Assembly: GCA_016649995.1 (NCBI GenBank)
Contig: JAENWJ010000014.1
Coordinates: forward strand, 1 to 34,407
From: Peptostreptococcaceae bacterium
Lineage (GTDB): Bacteria > Bacillota > Clostridia > Peptostreptococcales > BM714
Direction of reading: 5' to 3'
Length of the DNA: 34,407 bases
Each line of letters opens with the position of its first letter. Within the stretch, counting starts at the first letter, position 1. Position numbers and translations under genes: made by a program. Below the pieces are notes generated by a model. It saw nothing but the letters and a program-made list of their open reading frames with translations, made no database searches and was not told the origin of the DNA. Below, piece after piece: positions 1,905 through 27,358 of this stretch.

Positions 1905-2771
1905 TTATAAATACATGTCGAACATTTCAAACCCTTCTATTGTTTCCTTAAGATTCCTGTATACAAATTCCTTGTTCTTTTCTAGGAGCTTTATCAGGAG
2001 TATGTTGCACAGCTCCAGCGTAACAATATGTGAATTAAAAAAGCCTGTATTGTCAGTTTCAACTACGAATGCAATGTCGCTTTTTATTCCTATAGGAGAA
2101 AGCTCTCTGTCTGTGATTGAAATCACTGCCGCACCCTTTTCTGACGCAAACCGCACGGCATTAAGAGTAGTCTTTGAATACCTTGGAAAACTTCCTGCAA
2201 TCAAGAGGTCTCCCTCATGTACTGCTCCCAGCTTCTCTATGTTTTCGAGGCCTCCCTCGGTTATTGAAACAACCTTGAAGCCCATCCGCCTCATATGCAT
2301 AAGCAAAAAGTCCATAGCCAGCGCACCGTCGTGCAATCCAATAAAATATATCGTATCCGAGGCATATATAAGCTCCACAGTCTTTTCTATCTTTTCGATG
2401 CTTATTTCAAGAATAAATGACTTAAGATTATTCAAATCCCGCTCAGCAACCTGAAGTCCCATGTCTCCTGAATCCTTAAGGTCCGAAAGGCTTTTAAGAA
2501 CACGCTCATCAGGGGTGGCTATTTGCCTTGTTTCCACTATTATTGCGTTCTTCAAGTCGCTGTACCCTTCATACCCTATGGATCTAGCGAACCTGATTAT
2601 TGTAGCATCTGAAAACCCGACCCTTTCACCCAATTCGATCGCAGAAAGGAAAGGAACCTCCTCGATATGGTCTATCATATATTTTCCTATGGCCATCTGG
2701 CTCCCTGTTAGGCTTTCATAGTTTTCTTTCAGTCTCTCGAGCACGTCCTTTTCCCTTTTTGTTTTTTTCAT
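1905..2771 (-). CDS. RpiR/MurR-family transcriptional regulator (HTH + SIS)
   Basis: This 288-residue protein has the RpiR layout: an N-terminal helix-turn-helix with 'FSDATIIRFARSIGYEG' as the recognition region, then a sugar isomerase (SIS) domain with 'TIYFIGLHDGALAMDF' and 'LIAGSFPRYSKTT'. SIS domains in this family bind phosphosugars or related effectors and control the binding of DNA. An in-frame ATG 11 codons upstream (2804) lies inside deoD; I prefer the ATG at 2771 because a strong G-rich ribosome binding site (AAGGGGGGG) sits just before it and the gene then starts 16 bases after the deoD stop. It is probably cotranscribed with deoD and may control deoD, the following carboxyltransferase gene, or both. 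Confidence 0.85.
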   Translation of the reverse strand: MKKTKREKDVLERLKENYESLTGSQMAIGKYMIDHIEEVPFLSAIELGERVGFSDATIIRFARSIGYEGYSDLKNAIIVETRQIATPDERVLKSLSDLKDSGDMGLQVAERDLNNLKSFILEISIEKIEKTVELIYASDTIYFIGLHDGALAMDFLLMHMRRMGFKVVSITEGGLENIEKLGAVHEGDLLIAGSFPRYSKTTLNAVRFASEKGAAVISITDRELSPIGIKSDIAFVVETDNTGFFNSHIVTLELCNILLIKLLEKNKEFVYRNLKETIEGFEMFDMYL

Positions 2772-14885: not shown

Positions 14886-15171
14886 TAATCCATTAAAGCA
14901 TTGATTGAGACGAGTAAGTTTGCAGACCGATTGTAGAGAGCCGGGAACAGGTGGAAACCCGACATCGCGAAACATACCGAATGGACTCATGAGCTGGCGC
15001 TGAACCCACGAAAGTGATAGTATGCAACACGGGATTCTCCCGTTAGAGAGATAGGATATCGGCCAAGCCCGTATCCGATAAGAGAATCGGAACCTTTTCC
15101 GGTCGACACGAGGTGGTACCGCGTTAATACGCCCTCTGTAGCTTTTGCTGCAGAGGGCTTTCTTATTTTTT
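14886..15171 (+). ncRNA. T-box riboswitch, tryptophan specifier
   Basis: A full T-box leader before trpB. Stem I shows the AGTA segment of the specifier loop near 14913 and the opposite strand GAA-TGG-A-CTC, which puts the specifier codon TGG (Trp) at 14982-14984. The distal AGAGAGCCGG and CAGGTGGAAACCC elements are at about 14935-14960. The conserved T-box sequence GAGGTGGTACCGCG lies at 15110-15123; its TGGT pairs with the tRNA NCCA end. Uncharged tRNA-Trp should stabilise the antiterminator and allow transcription into trpB. The specifier and the downstream gene agree. Confidence 0.95.
15131..15171 (+). terminator. T-box regulated terminator
   Basis: GCCCTCTGTAGC (15131-15142) pairs with GCTGCAGAGGGC (15147-15158) over 12 bp with one G-T pair and a TTTT loop, followed by a T-rich tract. 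It competes with the antiterminator formed with the T-box sequence. Confidence 0.93.
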
Positions 15172-15268: not shown

Positions 15269-16447
15269 ATGAAAAACAGAAACGGATATTTCGGAAATTA
15301 CGGAGGCGCCATTGTCCCCGAGCCCCTGGAAGCAGTCCTAAAGGAACTCGAAGACTCTTTCTTCACATACGTAGACGATCCGGACTTTCAGGAAGAACTT
15401 GCATACTACCAAAAGGAATACATAGGCCGGGAAAACCCCCTGTACTATGCTGAAAACCTAACCCAAAAAGCAGGCGGAGCAAAAATATATTTAAAGCGCG
15501 AGGACCTGAACCACACGGGCGCACACAAAATAAACAATGCAATCGGACAGGCCCTTCTTGCCAAACGAATGGGCAAAAAAAGAATCATAGCCGAAACAGG
15601 CGCAGGACAACATGGCGTCGCTGCTGCTACAGTCTGCGCTCTTTTCGGAATGGACTGCATAATATACATGGGCGAAAAAGACATCAAGCGCCAATCACTT
15701 AATGTCTATCGCATGAAGCTCCTGGGCGCAAAAGTCGTTCCGGTCACTGACGGCGACGGCACACTAAAAGAGGCAGTAGATGCGGCCCTAAATGATTTTG
15801 TAGAAAATGCCGACACAACCTTCTACCTTCTTGGTTCTGCAGTCGGCCCCCATCCCTATCCTGTAATGGTTAGGGAGTTCCAGAGCATTATAGGGAAAGA
15901 GGCGCGAAGACAAATAATCGAAAAGGAAAACCGTTTGCCTGACTATATAGTCGCCTGCGTTGGAGGAGGAAGCAATGCAATAGGACTCTTCAGCCCATTC
16001 CATGATGACGCTTCAGTTAAAATGGTGGGCGTTGAACCTGCCGGAAAGGGTCTCGACACTCCCGATCATGCCGCCACACTTACAAAGGGCATACCCGGTC
16101 TGATACACGGATTCAAATGCTACAACCTGCAGGACGAATACGGCGTACCCCTTCCAGTTCATTCAATAGCCGCCGGACTTGATTATCCAGGCGTAGGCCC
16201 GGAACACAGCTTCTACAAAGATTCCGGCAGGGCTAAATACGAATCGGCAACAGACGCCGAAGCTCTTGAAGCCTTTGCCATATTGTCTCAGACAGAGGGC
16301 ATCATACCCGCCCTTGAAAGCTCACACGCCGTAGCATACACCATAAAGCTCGCGAAAAGCCTTCCCTCGGACAATATCATCATAATGAACCTTTCCGGCA
16401 GGGGAGACAAAGACGTCAACCAAATAATGGCACTCCTTGATGCATAA
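15269..16447 (+). CDS. trpB: Tryptophan synthase beta chain (solo)
   Basis: A 392-residue TrpB that condenses indole and L-serine to L-tryptophan using PLP. Cofactor lysine K87 is in HTGAHKINN and catalytic E109 in [11 protein letters not shown], at the same numbers as in the Salmonella enzyme. GGGSNAIG (232-239) holds the PLP phosphate, and SGRGDKD lies near the C-terminus. The size and motifs are those of TrpB1, the type that normally pairs with TrpA. No trpA or other trp gene lies next to it: a terminator-like hairpin follows and then a convergent helicase gene. With the Trp T-box this suggests indole salvage or a dispersed pathway. Confidence 0.95.
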
Positions 16448-22537: not shown

Positions 22538-22825
22538 GATGTCACCCTCCTTATGTTTTATGGTTTAAGGATAACACCTGCGTAAAATCAATTGGTCGCA
22601 TGGAAAGCGACAAATAAACTCAAAGGGTCTTTTGTACAAAGTAGAAGAGCGTTTCATTAATTTCAAAGATGTCGAAGTTTCCATCTTCTATGAAGTACTG
22701 AATTATAACATCAAACATACTGCTGCTTGAAAGTGCAAAACCGGCCCTAGTAATTATAATTATTTGTCCACACCCCCATTTTAACCATACAAAAATCACA
22801 TAAATTCCATTGATTTTAGACAACA
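22538..22825. other. Gene-poor stretch left of the peptide module; possible 3' remnant of a gene
   Basis: No gene is convincing. A minus-strand frame (22620-22826) has a protein-like C-terminal part (MFDVIIQYFIEDGNFDIFEI), followed on that strand by a small hairpin (GTCGC/GCGAC near 22594-22610). Its N-terminal part is read through the 21-bp repeat, so it may be the 3' tail of a gene cut by insertion. Confidence 0.25.
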
Positions 22826-22829
22826 AAAA
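22809..22829 (+). repeat. 21-bp direct repeat, left copy
   Basis: Begins ATTGATTTTAGACAAC and is identical over 21 bases to 27218-27238, in the same orientation, 4.4 kb apart. Both copies sit directly after a terminator T-tract when read on the minus strand. Confidence 0.85.
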
Positions 22830-22873
22830 TAGCGTAAGGAAATTAAATTATAATCACTCCCTTACGCTATTTT
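22826..22873 (-). terminator. Terminator of the DUF819/transglutaminase/dipeptidase operon
   Basis: AAAATAGCGTAAGG (22826-22839) and CCTTACGCTATTTT (22860-22873) form a perfect 14-bp stem with a 20-base loop, followed on the minus strand by T's. The flanking A and T runs make it usable in both directions. Confidence 0.85.
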
Positions 22874-22920: not shown

Positions 22921-23889
22921 CTATCCTAAGTTTTTTTGTAAAAAATGCTCTGCGTTTTTATACATAATTCCTTCCGCCTGTCTTTGGGTTAACCCTTTAG
23001 ATAAGAAATACTTGTATAACCCAGCAACATCCGTTGGAGTGCTAAGGCACTCGGGTAGCACTGCACCATCAAAATCAGAACCTAAAGCTAAGTTCTTTTC
23101 TGCTCCTAATGCAAAGAAATGCTCTACATGACGATATAAATCATCTAAGTTTTTCACCTCACCATCATCCTTAATGAATTTAACAAAGTAATTCAAACCA
23201 ATAAGGCAATCTCGTCGAACCATCTCTCGAATCATATCATCAGTGAGATTACGCTTATGACTACATACCGTTCTAGCATTAGAATGGGTAGCCATAAATG
23301 GTTTTTTTGCAATTTTCAAAAGGTCATTAAAGCCAGAATCATTGAGGTGGGAGATATCCACAATAATTCCCTGTTTTTCGAGTTCAGGTACCATAGCCTT
23401 GCCAAAATCAGATAATCCATGATCAGTTGTATGCCCGGAACCCAACTCGTTTTCACCATTCCAGACCAAAGTGAGAGCTCTTACGCCTTCGTCCGCCACC
23501 ACTTTTGCCCGATTTAAATCACCTGCTAAGGCGGAGCCATTCTCAATGGAAAGAAATGCAGCTGTCTTTCCTGCCGCCCAAGCTATTTTCATATCAGAAG
23601 CAGTACGACAAGGCATAACCCGATCATTAAACTGCTTCATCTGACGGTAAAAACTATCACTATTAAACTCAAAATAATCAATGGCATCCTGTCCTCGCAC
23701 CTCATCTGGAATGAACACTGCGTAAAACTGTGCCCAGTGTACACCTTCTGGTATGGAAGTTAATGACAGCACCCTCTTTGGATCATCCAATGTGTCTGGA
23801 TTTCCAGTACTTGTATATTTCCAGTCGGTCAGTGTATCACAATGAAGGTCTACCAAAGCATAAGGTTTTATCAATTTATCTGTTTTCAT
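22921..23889 (-). CDS. Membrane-dipeptidase family (M19) zinc dipeptidase
   Basis: A 322-residue member of the renal dipeptidase family (peptidase M19), which hydrolyses dipeptides, including ones with a C-terminal D-amino acid. Metal ligands are visible: H16 and D18 in DLHCDTLTD, the bridging glutamate in FLSIENGSAL, the histidine in MATHSNART, and GSDFDG towards the C-terminus. No signal peptide is present, so it acts in the cytosol. AGGAG precedes the ATG. It is the last gene of the operon, starting 15 bases after the transglutaminase-like gene, and is followed by a strong terminator. It probably completes cleavage of a peptide substrate to amino acids. Confidence 0.9.
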   Translation of the reverse strand: MKTDKLIKPYALVDLHCDTLTDWKYTSTGNPDTLDDPKRVLSLTSIPEGVHWAQFYAVFIPDEVRGQDAIDYFEFNSDSFYRQMKQFNDRVMPCRTASDMKIAWAAGKTAAFLSIENGSALAGDLNRAKVVADEGVRALTLVWNGENELGSGHTTDHGLSDFGKAMVPELEKQGIIVDISHLNDSGFNDLLKIAKKPFMATHSNARTVCSHKRNLTDDMIREMVRRDCLIGLNYFVKFIKDDGEVKNLDDLYRHVEHFFALGAEKNLALGSDFDGAVLPECLSTPTDVAGLYKYFLSKGLTQRQAEGIMYKNAEHFLQKNLG

Positions 23890-23904
23890 TATATCTCTCC
23901 TAAC

Positions 23905-25305
23905 TTAGAGCCTCGATTGTAGCTCCGTAAATCCAACAACTTCTTTAAATCTATCAAACTCAAAGTATCGTAATGCACGGTGAAGAGTTTCAATCTCACC
24001 CACCTGATTATCATATGGATCAGCTCTCCAAAATTCCTTTGGCACTGTGAAATCAGCCTGAAACTGGCTATTAGCTACCATTCGGAAGGGATCCAAATTG
24101 CCAAAATAGAATTGGCGTCGCTCCTCATTTTGCTCCCGTACTGCACCCGTTCCAAATGACGGATCAGCATACAACCATCCATACGGAGCAATATAGAACA
24201 TAGTCCAATCATGTGCACCACAAAAATCTGGTCGTGTAATTAAACCACTTTGCCAATGAGCTGGTATACCTGCACAACGACAAAGTGTAATAAACAACAG
24301 TGCCATAACTCCACAATCTCCTCGCAGATTGCGAGCACCATTTTCTGGAATACTCTCTAAGCAAAAGTAAGATCGCATAAAACTGTATTTCATATTTAAG
24401 GTCACAAAGTCGTAAATTGCTCTAGCTTTTTCCAATGGAGAGTTCAGTCCCTCTGTTAAAGACCGAGTGAGCTCCCGGATATAGGGTGTAAACATAATAT
24501 GTGGAGGTTGTTCATGGATGTCAAAAGAAGGCTGCTCTTCATTCGGAACAATTGAATTCACATCGATATACCGAGCTGTATAAATATAGGAATACTCCAC
24601 CATAAACGGATGATTCTCCATCATCCGCTCTTCCCAGTATACTGTGCGTTGCGGGGCATCTTCTGGTGCCACTTGTCCGTCGAATGGGCTCATCTGTTCA
24701 ATGCGAATTTCACTTTGTTGTGAACAACTACACGGAATCGGCAAATGAATTCTAACTATCTCGCCCAGCTTAAAATACTTGTCCTTAATCTGCACACTGG
24801 CGCGAACACAAATCCGATTAGAAACACTTCCTTTTTCTCGCATTCTACTTGCTTCCCGATCCAGCGGATTTTCTTGCGTACCACTACCAACGCTACCGCC
24901 GTCACAAACCATGTTTTGTACGCCAGCTCTCGCTGCAAATATTGCATCCGTCTTTATCATACTTTCATAAAAGCGGTCAAAGTAATGTGGAATACCATCA
25001 ATGTATATCCATTCAATCTCTCCATTTTGTTCTCTCTCATCAAACTCTGCTTCTGTAAATTCCGGAATATGCTCTTGCACTTTGATAACAGCTTTTTCTT
25101 TGGTATATGGATAGTTTTCCGACAAGCGAACCATTATTTCTCGTTGGACAACCAAAGAATTCCGCATTGATAGAATTTGATTTCCTGCTTTTAGCTTTCT
25201 ATCAATCAGCCGGATAGCACCCTTGAAATCTCCATACTCTTTACGACGTAAAATATCATCAGATAAACCCATTTGTAAGTATTTAAAATTATCATTTGGA
25301 TTCAT
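23905..25305 (-). CDS. Transglutaminase-like (papain-fold) protein
   Basis: A 466-residue cytosolic protein. A transglutaminase-core domain occupies about 285-400, with the likely catalytic triad C331 (NLRGDCGVMALL), H365 (GAHDWTMFY) and D381 (YADPSFG). The N-terminal 280 residues are unassigned: first helical, with acidic/basic repeats to about 130, then beta-rich, ending before the core. No signal peptide is seen. Prokaryotic members of this fold more often act as peptidases or amidases than as crosslinkers. The context (membrane protein before, M19 dipeptidase after) favours hydrolysis of an imported peptide or isopeptide. GGGAGG precedes the start. Substrate unknown. Confidence 0.8.
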   Translation of the reverse strand: MNPNDNFKYLQMGLSDDILRRKEYGDFKGAIRLIDRKLKAGNQILSMRNSLVVQREIMVRLSENYPYTKEKAVIKVQEHIPEFTEAEFDEREQNGEIEWIYIDGIPHYFDRFYESMIKTDAIFAARAGVQNMVCDGGSVGSGTQENPLDREASRMREKGSVSNRICVRASVQIKDKYFKLGEIVRIHLPIPCSCSQQSEIRIEQMSPFDGQVAPEDAPQRTVYWEERMMENHPFMVEYSYIYTARYIDVNSIVPNEEQPSFDIHEQPPHIMFTPYIRELTRSLTEGLNSPLEKARAIYDFVTLNMKYSFMRSYFCLESIPENGARNLRGDCGVMALLFITLCRCAGIPAHWQSGLITRPDFCGAHDWTMFYIAPYGWLYADPSFGTGAVREQNEERRQFYFGNLDPFRMVANSQFQADFTVPKEFWRADPYDNQVGEIETLHRALRYFEFDRFKEVVGFTELQSRL

Positions 25306-25340
25306 AGGTTTTTCCTCCCTACTTTAAATAGGCGTTGCAA

Positions 25341-26498
25341 TTAACTAAATAGTTTCATAATATTTGCCACTATCAGCCCCATAACACTCCCGACAGCTGC
25401 ACCAAACACACCCATCAATACACCAATACCAGCATAAGAACCATCATAAGCGGATGCAATGATAGGAGCTGAAGCAGCGCCACCGATATTTGCCACAGAT
25501 GCTGTAGATACCATTGTAAAATCCCATTTAAATAGTTTAGCCAACAATGCCATAATTACAACATGAACTATCATTACAAATAAACCAGCCATTAGCCACA
25601 TAGGCGAATCTAATATTTCGTTCAATCCTGCACGAGAAGCTAACAATGCGATTACTACATATAAATATATATTGGCCGTTTCTTCTATTCCGGCCATTTT
25701 CCCAATTGGGGACATAGCAACTATCAGCCCAATTGCAGTAACTATTAACACGGTCATCGTTCCCTTTCCCAGTATACCGAAAGCTAAAATCCCACCCAAA
25801 TTCTGACTGATTGCAGAAATAATTAGGGACAGTCCTAGCAAAGTAAGTAGAGAAGTAAAATCAAGAATTTTCGTATCTTTATCAATTTCAGCATTGGTTG
25901 CAACTGCAATGGCTTCTAACTTAGAAGTATCAGCATTCATTGCCTTGTTCCATTTGGGTGCAAATGGAATAAGAACCAACAATATTGCAATCCATACTGA
26001 GTAGAAAATTGTGTCAACGATTAGCGCAGCACCGAAATCAGCTTCAGGCACAGCTAGTGCACCCTGTAAGGCTGCCATATTACCGGATCCACCAATCCAA
26101 GAAGCACACAGAGCAGCCAAAGCGCGCCATGACTCTACGCCTAAAGTGTTCTTAAAGAGTATGTATGCTAATATAAAGCCTATGCTAATAGAAACCGCCC
26201 CACCCATGAAGATGGCAATCATACGACCACCTAACTTTGCTAATTTACGGAAGTCGCAACGCAATAGCATAATAAAAATCATTGCATATAAAAGATTGTT
26301 TTTTGTTGCGGAATAAGCGCTAGCAGTTGCTCCCATATCCCATAACCCGAAAGTACAGAAAGCCATATTGAACAAGTAAACCATAACTATCGGCGGAATA
26401 AACTTAAAGATTTTCCAGTTTGTCGCCTTTTTTACAGCAACAAGCATTGAGGCAAAGAATACTAAAAACGCGATGTAAGTAAAGCCATTTGTAATCAT
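25341..26498 (-). CDS. DUF819 family membrane protein, probable transporter
   Basis: A 385-residue protein with about ten to eleven membrane helices, of the DUF819 (YjcL-like) family. Typical features are the two glycine-rich inverted halves: AALCASWIGGSGNMAALQGA in the first and VSTASVANIGGAASAPIIAS in the second, the pattern of secondary transporters with re-entrant loops. The substrate of the family is not known to me. A small soluble linker (about 190-215, KWNKAMNADTSKLEAI) separates the halves. AAGGAG precedes the ATG. As first gene of a set with peptide-cleaving enzymes it most likely imports their substrate. Confidence 0.85.
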   Translation of the reverse strand: MITNGFTYIAFLVFFASMLVAVKKATNWKIFKFIPPIVMVYLFNMAFCTFGLWDMGATASAYSATKNNLLYAMIFIMLLRCDFRKLAKLGGRMIAIFMGGAVSISIGFILAYILFKNTLGVESWRALAALCASWIGGSGNMAALQGALAVPEADFGAALIVDTIFYSVWIAILLVLIPFAPKWNKAMNADTSKLEAIAVATNAEIDKDTKILDFTSLLTLLGLSLIISAISQNLGGILAFGILGKGTMTVLIVTAIGLIVAMSPIGKMAGIEETANIYLYVVIALLASRAGLNEILDSPMWLMAGLFVMIVHVVIMALLAKLFKWDFTMVSTASVANIGGAASAPIIASAYDGSYAGIGVLMGVFGAAVGSVMGLIVANIMKLFS

Positions 26499-26576
26499 TG
26501 ATTTTTCTCCTTTTTTTATGTTTTTTATAAACGGGTCTCCCTCCCGATTTATAACGAAAATATTTTACTATAATAA

Positions 26577-26627
26577 AAAACCCAACAAAATCCAAGCATG
26601 AAATCACGCTTGATTCTGTTGGGTTTT
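26577..26627 (-). terminator. Terminator or attenuator between DUF3870 and DUF819 genes
   Basis: AAAACCCAACA (26577-26587) pairs with TGTTGGGTTTT (26617-26627) and the stem continues inwards with AATC-AAGC/GCTTGATT. On the minus strand it is followed by a T-tract. It lies in the roughly 200 bases between the two genes and could either end the DUF3870 transcript or attenuate the operon. Confidence 0.8.
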
Positions 26628-26694
26628 ATCTGCGACGATATGGTTGAAATCATATCAAGCATAGACAAAGCAACAATTATAAGTTTTATTTAGT

Positions 26695-27018
26695 TTACTT
26701 ATTTCCAGTCATAACCTGCCACCGTTTTAAAGCATCTCTATAAGATACCATCACTGCTTTACGAGAGGAACCTCCATAACGAAGCTCTAACTCTCTCTCT
26801 AGCCAATTCTCAATATTCTGAAAGCATTTACCTATAAACAGTTTGGCTAAATACCTTTCGGTAAGATCAATTGTATGAGTACAACTAAAATCTAACACTT
26901 CATATGTAACATCGTCTACCTCAAAAGCCATATAGAAAGAACCATACATCTTAGTAATTGCATTATCTGCATTCGTCCGCGATTCTCCTATTACAAATGC
27001 AGAATTTATTTTATTCAG
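26695..27018 (-). CDS. DUF3870 domain protein, probable CTG start
   Basis: A small soluble protein of the DUF3870 family: VIGESRTNADNAITKMYGSF near the N-terminus, DFSCTHTIDLTE in the middle and ELELRYGGSSRKAVMVSY at the C-terminus match the family pattern. With the first ATG (26949) the conserved VIGESRTN block would be lost. In frame upstream is a CTG at 27018, seven bases after AGGAAGGAGG, giving 107 residues and a full-length domain, so I choose it. The role of DUF3870 is unknown; the family occurs near amino-acid and peptide catabolism genes in anaerobes. Here it heads the DUF819-transglutaminase-dipeptidase module. Confidence 0.72.
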   Translation of the reverse strand: MNKINSAFVIGESRTNADNAITKMYGSFYMAFEVDDVTYEVLDFSCTHTIDLTERYLAKLFIGKCFQNIENWLERELELRYGGSSRKAVMVSYRDALKRWQVMTGNK

Positions 27019-27217
27019 ATATAAGCCTCCTTCCTATATAAAGGTATCTCTTAAATTATATGTTAAATATAATTGTGTCTTTTGTCAAGAACTTTTCATA
27101 ATTGGGGATGCGGACAAAAACTTGGACTACTTGCATTCAATTATCATTATTATGAATATACCATCAAGTATAATCTAAATTAATCGCATTTTCTATCCCA
27201 ACAATTTCACAAATCTT

Positions 27218-27238
27218 ATTGATTTTAGACAACAAAAA
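27218..27238 (+). repeat. 21-bp direct repeat, right copy
   Basis: Identical to 22809-22829. It overlaps the T-tract of the tRNA-Lys terminator, about 45 bases downstream of the tRNA 3' end. Confidence 0.85.
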
Positions 27239-27281: not shown

Positions 27282-27358
27282 TGGTGCCCTATCAGGGATT
27301 CGAACCCTGGACACCTCGATTAAGAGTCGAGTGCTCTAGCCAACTGAGCTAATAGGGC
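27282..27358 (-). tRNA. tRNA-Lys (anticodon CTT)
   Basis: The 77 bases include an encoded CCA end (27284-27282). The acceptor stem GCCCTAT/ATAGGGC pairs over seven bases, U8, the D-stem GCTC/GAGC, anticodon stem ACTCGA/TCGAGG region and T-arm with GTTCGAATC are all present. The anticodon loop CTCTTAA reads CTT, decoding AAG lysine. A strong terminator follows. Confidence 0.96.

Follow-up and report, generated by a model that had tools for sequence, protein, structure and literature searches.

In Bacillus subtilis, the products of dppBCDE-ykfABCD link peptide import to the cutting of murein peptide and the cytoplasmic processing of L-Ala-D-Glu, and in Escherichia coli the MpaA-YcjG-PepD route likewise starts with an endopeptidase and goes on to convert L-Ala-D-Glu into amino acids (PMC2954226). 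As of 2012, a peptidase for the L-Ala-D-Glu bond was undescribed in eubacteria (PMC3305447). Here, we analyzed a 34,407-nt stretch of DNA from a Peptostreptococcaceae bacterium (contig JAENWJ010000014.1; hereafter the window), which carries genes for a DUF3870 protein, a DUF819 membrane protein, a transglutaminase-like peptidase (TG), and an M19 dipeptidase. We consider this module likely to be a variant murein-peptide utilization operon, and an uncatalogued structured RNA beside a transcription terminator probably switches the peptide route, as well as relatives of it in other gut bacteria. Compared with the Bacillus operon, import, murein-peptide cleavage, and cytoplasmic L-Ala-D-Glu processing would all be retained, but with DUF819 instead of the ABC transporter, TG at the place of YkfC, and M19 instead of the YkfB-like dipeptide epimerase (AEE) and dipeptidase; loci related to the window share AEE (YkfB), S66 (YkfA type), M55, and Dpp with B. 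subtilis. The E. coli route has the same succession of an endopeptidase and L-Ala-D-Glu processing; however, MpaA is a metallocarboxypeptidase unrelated to TG, and the epimerase step is absent from the window. Judged by their sequences, the encoded proteins appear to represent a variant of a known pathway type. The operon comprises the following features.

27060-27088, minus strand: promoter-like site TTGACA-17-TAACAT upstream of DUF3870 (sequence pattern)
26695-27018, minus strand: DUF3870 protein, 107 residues, CTG start (Pfam PF12986, 1.1e-26, 93/94 positions)
26615-26677, minus strand: conserved structured RNA, 63 nt, helices P0/P1/P2, between DUF3870 and DUF819 (covariation, synteny)
26574-26624, minus strand: rho-independent terminator, its 5' arm overlapping the P0 3' strand
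25341-26498, minus strand: DUF819 membrane protein, 385 residues (Pfam PF05684, 3.5e-107, profile positions 1-377/379)
23905-25305, minus strand: TG, 466 residues (Pfam Transglut_core, 1.2e-19, core residues 278-382)
22921-23889, minus strand: M19 dipeptidase, 322 residues (Pfam Peptidase_M19, 8.6e-74)
22821-22872, minus strand: operon-end terminator hairpin with a T tract

The four genes make up a single unit, bounded by a promoter-like signal at one end and a terminator at the other. The intergenic gaps measure 15 nt (TG/M19), 35 nt (DUF819/TG), and 196 nt (DUF3870/DUF819), and M19 is followed, after about 45 nt, by the strong operon-end hairpin (-25 kcal/mol). The promoter-like site is weak evidence alone, because the regional count of such sites is not above that of shuffled sequences. 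The original prediction, made from the letters of the window, had placed the four families along this strand, where Pfam profiles match all of them, and had described complete catalytic sites in two cytosolic enzymes. Indeed, the triad C331/H365/D381 does not vary among 29 TG homologs, the M19 metal site has its HxD, Glu, His, His, and Asp residues aligned with those of solved M19 dipeptidases, and neither TG nor M19 has a hydrophobic N-terminus. The gene module it outlined therefore stands, to which we add the probable murein-peptide/L-Ala-D-Glu pathway as well as the RNA structure and the terminator located in the 196-nt gap, none of which it contained.

The four-gene module is no chance neighborhood. 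Once six duplicates had been set aside, 119 distinct TG loci were available for comparison; genes were located by tblastn, and neighbors were counted within 8 kb. In Oscillibacter valericigenes An907 (L190), all four genes are present in identical order, with identities to the window of 73% (DUF3870), 53% (DUF819), 61% (TG), and 70% (M19), and in Clostridiales bacterium CCNA10 (L202) all four lie within approximately 9 kb, DUF819-TG being followed a few kilobases downstream by M19 (67%) and DUF3870. The idea that these families belong together, on which the original prediction hinged, is thus borne out by their co-location in both genomes, the first with the order of the window, and by the DUF819-TG pairs: DUF819 sits directly upstream of TG on the same strand at 49/119 loci, i.e., at 49/49 of those where it is near.

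The neighboring genes point to the chemistry. AEE lies near TG at 46/119 loci, on the same strand in 45, and M19 at 13/119; no locus has both (46 vs 13; naive hypergeometric P 0.001, relatedness ignored). The DUF819 orthologs of the window's taxonomic order adjoin AEE and mostly DUF3870 without TG, accompanied by S66 and M20 in two cases, and the best solved match of this AEE is B. subtilis YkfB (1jpm, 5e-115). Neighbors of TG confirmed by Pfam include an S66 LD-carboxypeptidase, an Asp/Glu racemase, S58, an M55 D-aminopeptidase, and a beta-lactamase-like protein, while Dpp-type operons containing TG also encode YkfC-type NlpC/P60, diaminopimelate decarboxylase, and D-cysteine desulfhydrase-like proteins, these three named by reading of their sequences. 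Overall, a pathway gene occurs within 8 kb at 84/119 TG loci vs 4/34 control stretches; in these controls (539 kb from the same or related genomes) no AEE, M19, DUF819, or TG was found. The same search that detected AEE in other genomes returned no AEE ortholog in the window's own genome, only a 27% partial match, and a search for NlpC/P60 YkfC, run without a positive control, gave no match in this genome or in the congeneric G001.

As a plausible route, DUF819 would import a murein-derived peptide, TG, a cytosolic papain-fold enzyme, would cleave the longer peptide, with the gamma-D-Glu-diamino acid bond as its likeliest target, in the role that YkfC has in Bacillus, and M19 would hydrolyze the resulting L-Ala-D-Glu directly, which would make the AEE/YkfB and L,L-dipeptidase step dispensable. 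The import, first cut, and dipeptide cleavage of D-residue peptides envisaged by the original prediction are what the neighbor genes suggest. Several observations weigh against the assignment to murein peptides. The AEE/M19 exclusion statistic takes no account of relatedness, 3/13 M19 loci come from one clade (L077-079), and some of the M19 proteins are only 25-34% identical; 35/119 TG loci lack a recognized pathway gene within 8 kb, and a YkfC homolog occurs together with TG at 11 of the 119. The window's own genome (G000) yielded no S66 LD-carboxypeptidase (PF02016) in a search that was positive in 6/14 control genomes. Finally, AEE relatives vary in dipeptide specificity, so that murein is the likeliest, not the only, substrate class. 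The module could serve the general scavenging of D-residue or unusual dipeptides and isopeptides rather than murein specifically, given that AEE and M19 act on many dipeptides; M20/PepV and PepD-type dipeptidases, S58, M29, and APC or SSS transporters at some TG loci would suit such a role. We regard this as unlikely, though worth keeping in mind: the AEEs are YkfB-like, with an Arg aligned with residue 24 in 55/60 of those near TG or DUF819 and the DxD motif in 58/60, features that we take to matter for L-Ala-D/L-Glu specificity in YkfB, and S66 LD-carboxypeptidase, YkfC, and diaminopimelate decarboxylase point to murein.

In TG, beyond C331, H365, and D381, the GDCG motif and a C-terminal R-x-D-x-x-D-x-Q-x-G-E signature are invariant across the 29 homologs. 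Its AlphaFold2 model (predicted local distance difference test score 92) is closest among solved structures to 3isr, a putative cysteine protease of Cytophaga hutchinsonii (Z 18.8, 256 residues, root-mean-square deviation 3.6, 14% identity), whereas TG has, in addition, some 150 residues of helical structure at its N-terminus, and the title of 3isr assigns no function; farther matches include transglutaminases, TgpA, and the pseudomurein endoisopeptidases PeiW and PeiP. Sequence searches for solved homologs of TG and DUF819 found none. Full-length homologs of TG are present in 34/394 sampled genomes of the window's taxonomic order, and an alignment-based search retrieved 536 relatives from a species-level genome collection; a single-sequence scan of genome contigs gave no match.

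Since a YkfC homolog shares those 11 loci, TG need not perform YkfC's step everywhere; TG as a plain YkfC substitute in all genomes is weakened, and its target bond becomes the weakest point of the model. A tentative alternative, which we take seriously without preferring it, is that TG de-amidates D-isoglutamine or amidated diaminopimelate, or cuts cross-links, and is needed with or without YkfC. Such a function would fit the Dpp-type operons in which TG adjoins YkfC (L195, L204, L205, L223, L227, L251, L254, L259), the C39-like peptidase next to TG in L077-L079, and a fold common to several kinds of amide-processing enzymes. However, most AEE-TG and DUF819-TG loci have no YkfC nearby (2/46 AEE-TG loci have one), and L258 reads S66-M55-TG-AEE, with TG at YkfC's place. 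The preferred assignment, cleavage at the gamma-D-Glu-diamino acid bond, would provide a testable function for a cytosolic transglutaminase-like family that is widespread in gut Clostridia. In another genus, TG homologs lie directly behind a gene for a LysO-like membrane protein instead of DUF819 (L073, L080, L081, L082).

The M19 protein aligns over its full length with the structures of Listeria Lmo2462 (3neh, 3lu2), metal-site and active-site residues being kept. Lmo2462 has L,D-dipeptide activity; unlike it, the window's enzyme has a substrate that is predicted only, and we class it as a predicted L,D-dipeptidase (L-Ala-D-Glu). If this is true, M19 would be a direct L-Ala-D-Glu hydrolase, an activity undescribed in any eubacterium according to the 2012 account (PMC3305447). 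DUF819 belongs to the CPA/AT clan, where it is closest to Na_H_Exchanger_1 (PMC8396727). This placement would allow DUF819 to be an exporter or ion antiporter, the RNA to be ion-responsive, and peptide use to be incidental, which we find improbable. The same clan also contains glutamate and aspartate/alanine carriers (PMC8396727), the RNA also precedes non-transporter genes (AEE, M20, alanine dehydrogenase), and in Neisseria meningitidis DUF819 adjoins an M15 peptidase gene (PMC12671195). We retain DUF819 as a predicted importer of murein-derived peptide; it would then be a candidate for the murein-peptide permease that awaits identification. A different conserved leader (around GGAGAGGGGCTNNAANCANTACTAC) precedes DUF819 in L208, L212, L214, L217, L219, L225, L240, and L242; it could be a further regulatory element, or it could reflect how closely these loci are related.

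In Oscillospiraceae, the DUF3870/DUF819 spacer can be aligned with the 196-nt one of the window. Nearly every inspected copy takes the same overall minimum-free-energy architecture: P0 as the outer helix, then an ACC bulge with a C facing it, P1, an internal loop, and the P2 hairpin. In the window, P0 pairs 26671-26675 with 26617-26621, and because its 3' strand doubles as the 5' arm of the terminator, P0 and the terminator are mutually exclusive; an overlapping terminator follows the RNA in 37/37 copies examined. Covariance was assessed using successive models. Model R1, built from seven DUF819 leaders of the window's taxonomic order, matched copies outside its training set (L167, L129, L133) and scored the copy in the window at E 0.085. 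Model R2, built from five sequences including the window, picked up another ten loci, with E between 4e-7 and 0.03, and ten copies outside its set show 29 double changes vs 10.6 after shuffling (0/500). In an alignment of 24 sequences (A12), 94% of cells are paired, with 94 double changes vs 26 after shuffling (0/500) and low values in all slid controls. These alignments are fitted to the model, so the structure is favored in the double-change counts; those pairs of P0 and P1 that lie closest to the bulge are also upheld by an anchored count without gaps. Rfam 15 gave nothing above its gathering cut-off at 26615-26677, L165, L191, or six more element loci; SQ1002_RNA, which scored 21 bits for the L191 element against a gathering score of 128, was set aside. 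A literature search turned up no functional study of any RNA associated with dipeptide epimerase.

Could these be ordinary terminators ending DUF3870 transcripts, the upstream helices being non-functional? A terminator is present in every copy, often close behind the DUF3870 stop codon. Nevertheless, the helices upstream of the terminator (P0, P1, and P2) show covariation, unpaired bases of the element are conserved, and in L191, L202, L164, L216, and L220 the element occurs without DUF3870 just upstream, and we judge this explanation very improbable. A conserved RNA structure linked to termination is well supported by the comparative sequence data, and the element is a candidate antiterminator or riboswitch. 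In the mechanism we propose, transcription would pass DUF3870 and then reach the RNA, whose P0 would compete with the terminator; stabilization of P0 by a ligand, a protein, or both would then allow transcription of the transporter and enzyme genes.

Across Clostridia, the RNA marks one and the same regulon, and it is short enough for in-line probing and in vitro transcription. Model R3 finds copies adjoining DUF3870 in L150, L146, L136, L143, L166, and L153; neither random stretches nor the surroundings of DUF3870 genes with CoA-transferase-like neighbors gave a convincing match. Downstream of the RNA are genes for DUF819, AEE, M20 dipeptidases, a peptide-binding protein, and, named by sequence reading, beta-lactamase-like and alanine dehydrogenase-like proteins. 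Two more real copies came from an unbiased scan across 398 genomes of the phylum, one in a DUF3870-RNA-AEE arrangement (E 4.5e-9) and one as DUF3870-RNA before a gene resembling D-aminoacylase. The window's genome has one real copy; a second match there (E 0.28) was taken as chance, as were weak R3 matches in G712, G743, G662, G506, G397, and G444, which have no pathway genes after them. Whether the RNA is a new regulatory class, i.e., a riboswitch or DUF3870-bound attenuator that senses a D-amino-acid or murein-peptide product and controls a Clostridia-wide regulon of DUF819, TG, AEE, M20, alanine dehydrogenase, peptide-binding, and beta-lactamase-like genes, seems to us evenly balanced. In L216, L220, and L234, the RNA lies ahead of an alanine dehydrogenase-like gene, and DUF3870-DUF819-TG come next, an arrangement that fits the release of alanine from an imported peptide. 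L190 contains a second element on the opposite strand (2374-2436, minus strand), before a 639-residue protein with a signal-peptide-like start that may be a secreted regulon member, and in L202 a protein with a similar start is encoded just downstream of TG.

DUF3870, whose gene adjoins the RNA in many genomes, is a candidate protein partner of it. Its CTG start at 27018 is preceded by GGAGG, and translation from this codon gives a protein that matches the Oscillibacter homolog from its first residue onward (71% identity), while the shorter ATG open reading frame (26695-26949) drops the first strand. The stop codon often lies 20-40 nt before the element, and in L237, L166, L167, and L153 the element occurs both before and after DUF3870, resembling regulator genes such as pyrR; by this analogy, DUF3870 may act on the RNA. 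The B. subtilis pyr operon, with its PyrR attenuation, similarly combines a small protein gene with terminator/antiterminator RNA before and after it, but DUF3870 and its RNA are unrelated to that system in sequence, and DUF3870 is a candidate RNA binder only. Moreover, G051, where the RNA stands ahead of DUF819-AEE, falls outside the set of 63 genomes with DUF3870, so that the protein is not to be assumed necessary, and its standing as an obligatory RNA-binding partner is left unsettled by this genome. The predicted fold is IscU/SufU-like (Z 9.3, 98 aligned, root-mean-square deviation 2.9), a weak functional clue with Foldseek E values >0.04. A literature search on DUF819 and DUF3870 found no functional study; both families would gain testable functions here, DUF3870 as an RNA partner. 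A second DUF3870 group lies beside CoA-transferase-like genes without the RNA element (L140, L142, L144, L148, L152, L155, L157, L158).

Neither TG nor DUF819 was found in the congeneric genome G001, and the whole operon may therefore have been acquired as one unit. An exact 18-bp repeat, TTGTTGTCTAAAATCAAT, occurs on both operon flanks (22809-22826 and 27218-27235, both minus strand), with a chance expectation of 0.11 even allowing 3 mismatches, and a tRNA gene (27285-27358) adjoins it. Elsewhere in the window, a T-box leader (RF00230, 94.9 bits) at 14892-15139 on the plus strand precedes a 392-residue open reading frame at 15269.

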